Assembly (NCBI RefSeq): GCF_032118995.1
Contig: NC_092648.1
Coordinates: forward strand, 1,875,001-1,939,000
Origin: Asterias amurensis
Taxonomy: Eukaryota > Echinodermata > Asteroidea > Forcipulatida > Asteriidae
Reading direction: 5' to 3'
DNA length: 64,000 nucleotides
Positions 41,901 to 59,900 of this stretch are shown here, piece after piece. A program made the translations under genes and the position numbers. The notes under the pieces are model-generated. The model was not told the origin of the DNA and searched no databases. It was given only the letters and a program-made list of their open reading frames with translations. The first letter of the stretch is position 1. Every line of letters starts with the position of its first letter.

Positions 41901-44900
41901 GTTGATATATTTTGAAGTGCCTGGTTTATTGATTGTGTTTGTGATATGTCTTTCCATTAAGTTTGTTTGGCTAAGTTGAACATGATTTTTGTAAGGAAAC
42001 ATTTACAAATGTGTATTTTCAACTGTTTTTAATAGTTTCATGTTACTTTTAATTGTTACCAATATGCAACTGCAATTAACAGCTTTATACCATTGCCTTA
42101 AATGTGTTTTATATTATGAAACTTTGACTATAATTGGTTTTAGTACAATGACTTCTGTTCAAGATATTTAGCTTGGTGCCATATAGAGCAGGAATTGCTC
42201 TCTGTAATAAGTTTTTTGTACATTGACTTATAATCATAATATTTGTTAACATGGTTAATGATTTAAGATTTGTGCCATAGAGCAGGAACTTCTGTCTCTA
42301 ATTCGTTTTAAGTACAATGACTTCTGTTTAAAACATTTGTTGTTGATTTTAGCTTGGTGCTGTAGAGCAGGAAAATCTGTCTCTAATTCGTTTTAAGTTC
42401 AATGACTTATGTTAATAATATTTGTTGTTGATTTTAGCTTGGTGCTGTAGAGCAGGAACTTCTGTCTCTAATTCGTTTTAAGTACAATGACTTCTGTTTA
42501 TAACATTTGTTGTTGATTTTAGCTTGGTGCTGTAGAGCAGGAACTTCTGTCTCTAATTCGTTTTAAGTACAATGACTTCTGTTTATAACATTTGTTGTTG
42601 ATTTTAGCTTGGTGCTGTAGAGCAGGAACTTCTGTCTCTAATTCGTTTTAAGTACAATGACTTCTGTTTATAACAATTGTTGTTGATTTTAGCTTGGTGC
42701 TGTAGAGCAGGAACTTCTGTCTCTAATCAAACTAGAACATCCTAACTTAGTCCACTACTTAGCCATGAGACACACACAAGGCAAAGAAGCAGTCCATGTG
42801 GAGGTAAGCTGTGGAGCAGAATGTGTTTAGCAGAAATTTCATTTGCTTAATGGACATCAGGGCCCAATTTCATAGCGCTGCTTAAGTACTAAAAGTAGCT
42901 AAGCATAACGAAATCATGCTTACCAGAATAAGGTGAACAGGCATTCGAACTAAGATTTAACTAAAAGGGAGACCGCCAACATATAGTTGGATAGCTTTGT
43001 TGGGAGAGCGCCGGTACGTTAATCCGGAGGTCGTGGGTTCAAATCCTGCTCCAGTCATCCAGTCAATTTTTCTTTGTTCAAACTCAAAACTACTTCAAAC
43101 TTACCCAGTCAGTTTCCCTTGTGGTTTATTACTTGATATTTAAATTTTAAAAAGTCACATCCCATTAAGGTGATCCCCCAGGCTGCCGCTCGCCAGGTTG
43201 TATCTTAACATTTGGTGTGATCCCTGGCTACAGGGCAGCTAACAGTTATGGCTTCTGACTGTCACCCCTGAACCAAGATATTTACAAATAGGGAGACCCC
43301 CAACATAGGGCTAGTTAACTCAATTGATAGAGCGCGTCGGTACAGTAATCTGGAGGTCGTTGGTTCAAATCTCGCTCCAGTCAATTTTTCTTTGTCTAAA
43401 CCCAATTCGGTTTTAAGTTATACATTATTGTCTTGATCTACAGCTTCTTATGGAGTTCATCAACGGTGGTAGTCTTGATCTCCAGGCGTTTAGCGGCACA
43501 CCTCTCCCACTTGATATCCTAAGACAGTACATCAATGATCTGATTGAAGCAATAGTCTATCTGCATAGCAGAGGAGTGGTGCATAAAGATCTCAAGGCGT
43601 CATCTGTGTATGTAAATAGCGATGGGAGACTAAGGATTGCAAACTACAGCTTATGCAAGAGGTAAAAAATCTCATTATTTTCATGATGGAGCTTATAAAT
43701 TTTTGATTGAAGCTTTCTTATAAGATTAAGTTGATGCCAGGGCCCAATTTTATAGAGCTGCTTCAGCACAAAATACCATGTCACATGTACAGTCTTTGAC
43801 TGGCGTCCTGCTTATTTGCTAAGCAGAAAATGTTTAAGCAACATTTTCTGCTGGTCACAAGCATCATCGGACCCTGTAACCAATTAATTAATCAGAGAGT
43901 TACAATTCGCCACAGGCAAATGTGAATAGGGTCAAGGCGTCACCACTATTCAGATTGCGACCACTGTTCACTCCCTTCAAATTTGTTGTTGTTTAGGCTT
44001 GTGTTTGTTTATTTGTTTACAGATTGGATGATTTAAATGAATCTATTCAAGCTGGAACTCATAGTGTTCGTTTTAGTGATGAGAAAAGCTATGGTGGTCG
44101 AGGTGGAAAGAAAGGAGATGTACTCAATCTGGTAAAACATTCATCAAACATTACTGACAAGAATTGTTCATAATGAAAATGCATTTGTAATCATATACTT
44201 ACAAGACAATTCAAAACCACAATGGATGATGTTAAATGGTTAAAATGTTGGAGGGTTGACTGTGTACTGTGCAGATACATTTTCTACATGATATATTAAA
44301 GGATGTCATACATATAGATTATCAGTCAAAACAACGGTGGGTGATATTAAATGGTCGGACAGTAGGAGGGTTCGGTGTGCTCTTTACTACAAGATTTCAT
44401 ATTGTAGGTTGGCATAGTCTACATATTTGTCAAACCACAGTGGAGCATATTTAATGGTCAGACAGTAGGAGGGTCGACTATGTACTGTGTTGATGCATCC
44501 ACCACATAACATGATATTGTAGACTGACATTGTATACATCTATCATTCAAAACATCAGTGACTGATTTTAAACAGTCCGTGAGTAGGAGGGTTGACTGTG
44601 TACATTTCCTTGATGCAGGGTATCTTAATAATGCAGCTGATACAATCCGATGATGGTGTGCAATATCCATGTGACATTCCTCAAGATCTACCTGCAGAGC
44701 TGCAAGATTTACTAAGCAGGTAAGAAAAATGCTAAATTAATTTTCGTCTCATGAGCAAAAATTAATATTTTGTGACATTGTTTTACTCATTTCTCAAAAA
44801 CTACGGCCCCTCAGCAAGTAATATTATAATGGACGTTTTCTACCACCATTATCTTCAAACCGTGTAAGTTTAATGTTGATCTGTGGACATTGTGTTTTAG

Positions 44901-56900: not shown

Positions 56901-59900
56901 GACGTATCTGTTATGTACCTCATTCTGTACCCCATCGTGTCTAACAGATATTGTATAGAGAGAGTGTATAGAGAGAGACGTATCTTTGGCTGCCATCCCC
57001 GTGAGCTTACAGAGTGTGCATTTGACATTGTCACATCATCGTCTGCTGGTCTTATTCCTGATGCAGAGGTTCTTCATGTTGTATCCGAAATCATCAATGA
57101 GTTTCCAGCATTGCAGGTTAGTTAGATTGCTAGTTAGTTGGATTGCTGGTTTAATAGTTGGATTGTTGGTTAGTTGGATTGGGGGTTAGTTGGATTGTGG
57201 GTATAATGTATTACAGGTTAGTTGGATTGCTGGTTAGTTGGATTGCTGGTTAATTGGATTGTAGGTTAACTGGATTGGGAGTTAGTTGGATTGTGGGTAT
57301 AATGTATTACAGGTTAGTTAGATTGCTGGTTTGGTGGATTGCAGGTTAGTTGGATTGTATGTTAGGTGGATTTATATGGTGTCGTGGCCGAGTGGTTTAG
57401 AGCATCAAATTCAAGTTCTGGTGGTTAAGTCATCTGAGTGTGGGTTTGAATCCCGGTCATGACACTTGGTGTCCTTGAGCAAAATGCTTTACCATTATTA
57501 CTACTGCTTTTCACCCAGGGGTATAAATGGGTACTGCAAGGATAGAGGTTGATATTGTGTATTTGTAACCGTTTTTTATAAAATGCATATGGTTGGAAAG
57601 ATAATTTAAAAGTAGAATACAATGATCCACACAAGTTTGCCTCGAAATTGCGTGGTTTTCCTTTTACTGTGCGAACTAACGCGGTCGGCCATTTATGGGA
57701 GTCAAAAATTTGACTCCCATAAATGGCCGACTGTGTTAGTTGACGAGGTAAAAGGAAAACCGTGCAATTTCAAGGTATGTTTGTGTGGATTATTGTATTC
57801 TACTTTTACAGCATCTTTCTACTCATATGCATATTATAACAAACGCTTTTCAATGACCAACTCGACCGATCCAAGGCAACGTGTTCCTTTAAAGGAATGC
57901 TATTGGCCCAATGACCAGGCCACTAAAGTAAAGCACAATGAGATGGTTATTGCAAAATGCGCTATATAAGAACTAGTTATTATTAGGTTTGTCTGATTGT
58001 ATATTAGTTCTCTTATTGAACTTCTTTACGCTACCATCCCTGTTCTATTTCTTTATGAAGTATTTGAGGAATTCACAAAGATAAACATTTCCAAAACCAT
58101 AATGATAAATTTTCTCATTTGTGTGATAACCTTTTAAAAAAACAATTCTTTGTTCACATTCTAGGCTCGTAACTATTGTATACGGTTAAACCACACCGCT
58201 ATATTGAGGGCAGTATTAAACCACTGTGGCATCTCGGAGGATAAACATCATGAGGTTTATAAAATCTTAAGTGATGCTCGGACGGAGAAGTTGAGTAAAC
58301 TTCAGATCCAGACAAGACTCTGTAGTTTATCCCTCACTGAGCAAGAGGTAAGACAATTCAAACAAAAACACTCTAGTAATTCTAAGTACTGCCACCAGTC
58401 TATGTACAGTTGTCAGTTTGCTTGACCTCATTTATGAAACAATCTCCCTCTACACATCAAACAAGCTACTACCATCTCACATGTCAAAAGTCTTCTCAAA
58501 ACATTTCTTTGCAATTGATTGTATATCTAGTTTTCTTTTGTTCTTATGAATGCTTTGAGATTTTCTTTGTGATGTGTTAGCGCTAGTTATTATTATTATT
58601 AATATGGGTGTAATAATAATAATAATAATAATAAAAAAGGAAACTTGTAATGCGCCATGTCTGTCACAGGTGACACTCCTGGCGCAGGAAATCTAACAAA
58701 GCTAACAACTGAAGGAACTAATTACACAAAATAAACAGAAGGAGAAGCAGCTTGTGTGAAGAGGTGGGTCTTGAGTTGGTTCTTGAAAGTGTTGAAGGAA
58801 GTTTCCTTTCTGAGTTTGATGGGGAGTGAGTTCCATAATTTGTGGTGCATTGTGGCCTAGTGGTCTAAGAGCACCCCTGTTAAAGTTCAGTCATTCAAAG
58901 AGTGTGGGTTGGATTCATGAAGGGGCATGTTCATGATGCTTGTGTATTTGAGCAAGATGCTTAACCACAATTGGTTTGTCTTGTAGATGGAAAGAAAAGC
59001 TGTAGGTCACTTGTACCTAGTATAGGTAATGCACATAAATCATCCAAGAACGCTTAATGTAAAATGAAATTAAAATGAAGTAAAACTGATTTCTGGTTGT
59101 GTATCTTGTTGTTTTAAAATCTTTGTTGTATTTCATTGTGCGTCTACGGTGTGTATACTTTTGTTGTTATTTGACTTGCGATTCAGTTGTTGCAGTGATT
59201 TGTAAATGTTTTAAAATAAACCATTAAGTAAATACGAAATGAAATGTTATGAATCTTTGCAGGTGAGCAACTTGTACAGTTATATAGAGCTGGAAGGTCA
59301 CCATAGCAAAGTAGCTGGTACCCTGAAGCCATTGAGTAAAGGCAAAGGGCCCAATGCATCTATGATCAAACAAGGTCTCCATGAACTGGAAGCAATCATC
59401 ACACAAGCACAGGTCTTTGGTATCAGACTAGAGGTAAGCCAAGGGTACGATTTCATACAGCTGCTTAAGCACAACAAAAATTGCTAAGCACAGCAGTATT
59501 ATGCTTACTAGAATAAGGTTACCAGCCAAACTACTATGTCACTTGTACAATGTGACTGGTATCCTGCTCATTGCAGCTAAGCAGAAAATTGTTAAGCAAT
59601 GTTTTCTGCTTAAGCAGCTCAATGAAATTGTGCCCAGGTCTTTGGTATCAGACTAGAGGTAAGGCCAGTTATTTTCGTCTTCAAAGTTTGCTTCTTGTAG
59701 CCTCTTACATTGAGTGGCCTTTTAGCCTTGTTTGGGGTAGACTTGACTCAAGTCCCAATCCTGTGCCACCGCCAGAAAACTACTGTTTTGTGATGCTATG
59801 CATTCCCCAAACTGTTCCGCATGCGGGACAGGGACTTGACGATGTCGCAGTTGCCTGATATGTAAATGTATTCCCTTATGAACATGTACATGTAACATTG

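Follow-up and report, generated by a model that had tools for sequence, protein, structure and literature searches.

The window analyzed here is a stretch of 64,000 nucleotides from the starfish Asterias amurensis (NC_092648.1, positions 1,875,001 to 1,939,000 of the forward strand), and the subject is EIF2AK4 (GCN2), the stress kinase gene that it carries. Five of the 62 EIF2AK4 splice junctions lie inside a local duplication, namely the acceptor of exon 9, the donor of exon 21, the acceptor and the donor of exon 26 and the donor of exon 28, all of them within exons 9-33 (5/50), and like duplications were found at junctions of kinesin genes. On the sequence evidence, these are likely to be neutral tandem duplications, similar to minisatellites, that straddle junctions by accident and are tolerated, of the kind known from amphioxus as "mirages"; the same judgment covers the view that such junction-straddling duplication is a low-frequency feature of several genes of this asteroid genome and not a device of EIF2AK4.

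The EIF2AK4 model (31435..64000, plus strand, as are all features of the gene given below) appears to run past the end of the window. It was built from exon cores chosen by eye among the open frames, the splice sites being scored afterwards, and for exons 2-33 the splice sites were acceptable and the phases consistent at nearly all junctions. The donor of exon 3 was not found by splice-site scoring and this exon was excluded from the junction set, which comprises the 62 junctions of 31 curated exons. When the concatenated open reading frames of the window were compared with the Protein Data Bank, human GCN2 (8t7t_A, E 3.6e-208) was matched in four stretches, from residue 344 to 1459; this homology support covers exon 9 onward, and exons 1-8 were identified by eye. 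The exon numbering used in an earlier note on this DNA fits the rebuilt model. A junction was counted as duplicated if it lay inside a copied segment scoring at least 16, with at least 4 bp on either side of the junction. At this threshold, 145 repeat segments were detected in the window, whereas three third-order Markov simulations yielded none.

Four of the five junctions carry arrays, which were defined by repeat detection and splice-site scores. At the acceptor of exon 9 (42183..42727, 85-bp unit), every intact unit contains TTTTAG|CTTGGTGC and the exon's initial ~35 bp; the true acceptor is at 42693 and four intact decoys lie upstream of it, at 42353, 42438, 42523 and 42608. The array at the donor of exon 21 (53218..53315, 22/44-bp unit) repeats the final ~16 bp of the exon plus the donor, with the true donor at 53233 and decoy donors at 53255 and 53277. 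At the acceptor of exon 26 (56697..56985), CAG|ATATTGT, together with ~44 bp of the coding sequence, is present in four copies spaced 90, 71 and 76 bp (unit 71-90 bp), the true acceptor (56948) being the last and the decoys lying at 56711, 56801 and 56872. The donor of the same exon opens an array of about 16 copies of a 16-bp unit (57110..57372), in which the true CAG|GTTAGT at 57116 is accompanied by three more copies of this motif and by weaker ones. Under a strict half-unit rule three of these four junctions are tandem; the exon 26 donor fails the rule, yet Tandem Repeats Finder calls an array there.

The donor of exon 28 (59433) differs from the other four. Repeat comparison confirmed that the junction is copied, although not in tandem as had been claimed: it lies in one of two 29-bp direct copies (59410-59438 and 59635-59663, within 59410..59663) that are spaced by 225 bp and enclose an inverted-repeat insert resembling a miniature inverted-repeat transposable element (MITE). 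This junction would therefore represent a separate event involving the MITE-like insert. The pair is a candidate long target-site duplication, although 29 bp seems long for a MITE. Variants of a recurrent MITE-like sequence (near GGGCCCAATTTCATAGAGCTGCTTAAGCA) were seen by eye in the introns, for example at window positions 42860, 43740, 45220 and 59440.

The earlier note had counted at least seven duplicated junctions in EIF2AK4, and its unit lengths agree with ours; the five above stand, whereas its arrays at exons 12 and 17 stop 13-15 bp off the junction. Intron 11 contains a degenerate ~110-bp array (44214..44603; lags 218, 221 and 336), but no copy spans the acceptor of exon 12 (44619), the final matched base being 44603, 15 bp upstream. 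Intron 17 (48805..49360) contains a degenerate ~30-bp array with the motif AATAAGTAAC, called by repeat detection at 48818-49327, so that the exon 17 donor (48804) fails the spanning rule; by eye only, this donor resembles a first degenerate unit. A third degenerate array, of ~190 bp (51568..52850; lags 169-192), occupies the interior of intron 20, away from junctions.

Human GCN2 can be aligned with the coding copies of exon 9, of exon 21 and, on the donor side, of exon 26, where for instance FPALQ precedes the donor; the copy on the acceptor side of exon 26 presumably resembles the human sequence too. This alignment points to the exon as the most likely source of the repeat, the intron carrying the copies. 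Furthermore, when the 491.5-Mb assembly (23 contigs, the window lying on contig C1) was searched with a method that skips very common words, the exon 9 and exon 26 acceptor arrays matched only themselves, and are therefore local duplications and not dispersed satellites; insertion of a dispersed satellite is thus unsupported for these two.

Junction arrays are also present in other genes. In a kinesin gene (locus L018:9304-10000, continuing in L037) the repeated part is the ~60 bp end of a motor-domain exon together with its donor, within a ~187-bp unit. An exact 15-bp search, which decayed copies would escape, located GCCAACAGG|GTAAGC ten times over about 2 kb, counting the true copy. A second kinesin locus, first pointed to by profile hits, has three copies of a 152-bp junction-straddling unit with equal donors (L032:2879-3286). 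In addition, a 140-bp duplication was found at a kinesin acceptor in L016 and a 16-bp repeat at a predicted donor in L014. The kinesin loci L014 and L017 (contig C4) are closely similar: in both, 30 bp at a predicted acceptor are copied at a distance of 294 bp, and a 16-bp repeat at one predicted donor has one unit more in one locus than in the other.

We compared EIF2AK4 with a background drawn from 240 kb of fetched sequence, comprising kinesin and myosin regions and the 5 kb that follow the window, and from the rest of the window. Background exons were predicted with a small codon and splice-site model trained partly on EIF2AK4 and on the kinesin and myosin matches, which at the threshold used recovered exactly 28 of the 31 EIF2AK4 exons and 138 of 154 profile-derived edges. 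From 322 predicted exons we removed 36 beyond window position 31000, where EIF2AK4 is represented by its curated exons, and 12 lying more than half in arrays, leaving 274 exons (248 in the loci and 26 in the window) and 548 junctions. In this filtered background 13/548 junctions are duplicated, five of them in tandem, compared with 5/62 and three in EIF2AK4 (Fisher 0.028 and 0.039). One of the 12 dropped exons is the L032 kinesin exon, which has profile support; restoring it gives 14/550 duplicated junctions, six in tandem (p 0.035 and 0.053). The restored count includes two predicted exons in L033, downstream of the window, that perhaps belong to EIF2AK4 itself, and without them it is 14/546. 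Without the filter, 33/572 junctions are duplicated and 24 are tandem (p 0.41 and 0.74); we think that most of the extra exons are false, because they lie inside arrays. When only the profile-supported edges of kinesin and myosin serve as background (4/150 duplicated, three in tandem, four decoy edges having been removed), the p values are 0.13 and 0.36. The comparison with other genes proposed in the earlier note, made here on the fetched loci and the window, thus yields an excess in EIF2AK4 after filtering and none without the filter or against profile-supported edges. A special status of EIF2AK4 is not shown, since the excess depends on the filter and the gene was selected because of its unusual look. 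The neighboring COQ8 gene, recognized by eye, has no duplicated junction, as the earlier note had stated (0/24 junctions of 12 predicted plus-strand exons, 19,969-28,191), but this says little, because fewer than one would be expected there at the rate of 13/548.

Several results bear on whether the copied splice sites, or decoys, are under constraint. Across eight aligned units of the L018 array, divergence is 3.15% in the coding-derived part and 3.35% in the remaining columns (permutation P 0.48), and in the last 19 codons four of five changes alter the amino acid; for the exon 9 decoys the corresponding values are 2.9% and 4.9% (P 0.42). An apparent conservation of the coding-derived part of the L018 decoys (P 0.006) was a misalignment artefact, which disappeared after unit-length alignment. 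The decoys appear neutral in the arrays where this was tested, and frequent use of them would be harmful: each of the four acceptor decoys of exon 9 and of the three of exon 26 would, if spliced, introduce an in-frame stop, and the two decoy donors of exon 21 (+22 and +44) would shift the frame, although the extension itself has no stop. Of the ideas advanced previously, the best supported is that duplicated junctions are tolerated because splicing still finds the original, given that the copy continuous with the remainder of the exon keeps the frame and that the decoys appear neutral. That decoys tune EIF2AK4, their use giving frameshifted or stop-containing mRNA that is degraded and so sets the level of the stress kinase, is improbable. 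The stops and frameshifts just described count in its favor, as do the usable sites that the decoys retain: the true exon 9 acceptor scores 5.9 bits and its four intact decoys 6.6-7.3, and with a position weight matrix the exon 21 decoy at 53255 scores 9.8 compared with 7.8 for the true donor. However, no positive evidence for tuning emerged: like decoys are present in unrelated kinesin genes, where the copies look neutral, and at the exon 26 donor CAG|GTTAGT is kept in only 4 of about 16 units.

The position of arrays within introns speaks to the proposal that junctions act as hot spots of mutation, where tandem duplication starts, for example, at AG|GT. Outside EIF2AK4, 7.5% of intron interior sequence lies in tandem arrays, compared with 9/548 junctions at intron position +5, a junction-to-interior ratio of 0.22 (95% CI 0.10-0.37, calculated before the L032 exon was restored), so that arrays are about 4.5-fold rarer at junctions. 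From 300-400 bp inside the intron toward the junction, array coverage drops steadily, from 5.3% to 1.6% (0-10 bp), and on the exon side it is about 1%, which is the pattern that selection against most junction-crossing duplications would give. Dropping the predicted exons that lie mostly in arrays lowers the junction figure somewhat, and purifying selection could mask a modest hot spot. Hot spots are thus contradicted outside EIF2AK4, and we consider them very improbable; what favors them comes from within the gene, where four of seven hand-listed arrays touch an exon against 1.1 expected by random placement (P 0.014).

This last result also weighs against neutral, tolerated duplication, as do several others. 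Adding two degenerate arrays gives four of nine touching an exon (P 0.037) and merging two arrays gives three of six (P 0.057). The EIF2AK4 slope is opposite to that found elsewhere, with coverage of 6.5-9.5% within 60 bp of junctions and 3.8% at 300-400 bp, from a handful of arrays. Two arrays, those of the exon 26 acceptor (8% vs 34%) and of L032 (2% vs 13%), have a coding-derived part that is more alike than the rest, although their flanks are hard to align because of unit lengths or array ends. Finally, the filtered background gives EIF2AK4 the higher junction rate (p 0.028-0.035).

Two further explanations fare worse. The copied exon ends might be real alternative exons in use, and exon-like predictions do occur within the L018 array; these predicted copies, however, are 55 bp long, which is not a multiple of three, or run into intronic sequence, their amino acids vary, and the EIF2AK4 acceptor decoys read into stops, so that this possibility seems highly implausible. 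Assembly error or collapsed haplotypes are extremely unlikely as the origin of the arrays, since the units bear their own substitutions and indels where misassembly would tend toward identical copies, and unit lengths differ among junctions, even though tandem arrays are hard to assemble, copy numbers taken from one assembly may still be wrong, and one amphioxus case was, according to the part of its report available to us, aberrantly assembled in the draft genome (PMC3087553).

Under neutral, tolerated duplication, the arrays could have arisen as follows. A local duplication would copy the edge of the exon, the splice site and the adjoining intron, and slippage or unequal exchange would then lengthen or shorten the array. 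Because correct mRNA would still come from the copy attached to the body of the exon, the remaining copies would become tolerated intronic decoys.

The structure closely resembles that of the amphioxus mirages. The available portions of the two reports on these (PMC3087553, PMC3902484) describe minisatellite-like tandem duplications spanning exon/intron boundaries in Adh3, the globins BflGb6 and BflGb9, troponin C and PGBD5, at donors and acceptors, with units of 10-72, 60, 108 and 150-160 bp, length instability and undisturbed splicing. As far as those portions allow the comparison, the starfish cases share the tandem minisatellite-like repeat (exons 9, 21 and 26 on both sides, L016, L018 and L032, with exon 28 not tandem), a unit that spans the exon/intron boundary (at the five EIF2AK4 junctions, and not at exons 12 and 17), a splice signal kept in many but not all units, as judged by decoy scores, and the involvement of both donors and acceptors, with units of 16 to ~187 bp. 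They differ in that four arrays occur in one gene, that L018 has ten donor copies, and that the host is a starfish, of another phylum, outside the cephalochordate range reported for mirages so far, a difference of range and not of structure. The mitochondrial COX1 of the assembly (contig C23) has an intact NHKDIG motif, a conserved one, under code 9, the code of echinoderms and flatworms, reads KHKDIG under table 5 and has a broken frame under table 2; a lancelet fluorescent protein had no match in the assembly, a weak negative obtained without a positive control. Amphioxus as the host is not supported by these results. In the AGGT model, as outlined in the accessible part of its report (PMC3443670), a tandem genomic duplication within an exon creates a new intron. 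The starfish arrays likewise carry splice-site sequence in a tandem duplication but copy an existing junction, and no new intron was noticed, none having been searched for. Ordinary intronic minisatellites share the unit lengths, the imperfect copies and the presence across introns, whereas the starfish units extend across a splice site into coding sequence; intronic minisatellites and splicing in C. elegans are the topic, to go by the portion available, of PMC4039745. Among the matches listed in the open-access literature, no title or opening of an abstract indicated a report of junction arrays in an echinoderm or sea star.

Some additional observations concern other parts of the window and genome. 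A 78-bp array of about ten copies (window 14172-14954) is in part predicted as a minus-strand exon and is perhaps a coding variable number tandem repeat, and an open reading frame near the right end (63738-63998) resembles, by eye, a retrotransposon reverse transcriptase. Two nuclear COX1 matches (L010 and L011, G000:C5:658874-660214 and 675294-676634) are 16,420 bp apart and the mitochondrial contig C23 measures 16,427 bp; they perhaps represent whole mitochondrial genomes inserted in tandem, or else an artefact of the assembly. On C23, seven of nine tRNAs just upstream of COX1 are on the minus strand, in keeping with the inverted tRNA block of asteroids, and the 22 contigs other than C23 agree with an asteroid chromosome number of n = 22.

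Altogether, the results extend a phenomenon of a few amphioxus genes to another phylum, give a first rough rate for it and provide evidence of tolerance rather than targeting. It is tempting to speculate, though we regard it as somewhat doubtful, that junction-straddling minisatellites are common in echinoderms too, perhaps across deuterostomes, at roughly 1-2.5% of splice junctions, and that the spliceosome must pick among their sites by position (proximity to the exon body) and not by sequence. If so, genes would carry up to ten identical splice sites in a row with near-identical exon flanks. Such arrays would offer natural tests of spliceosomal choice between equal sites, and may be raw material for new introns or exons.

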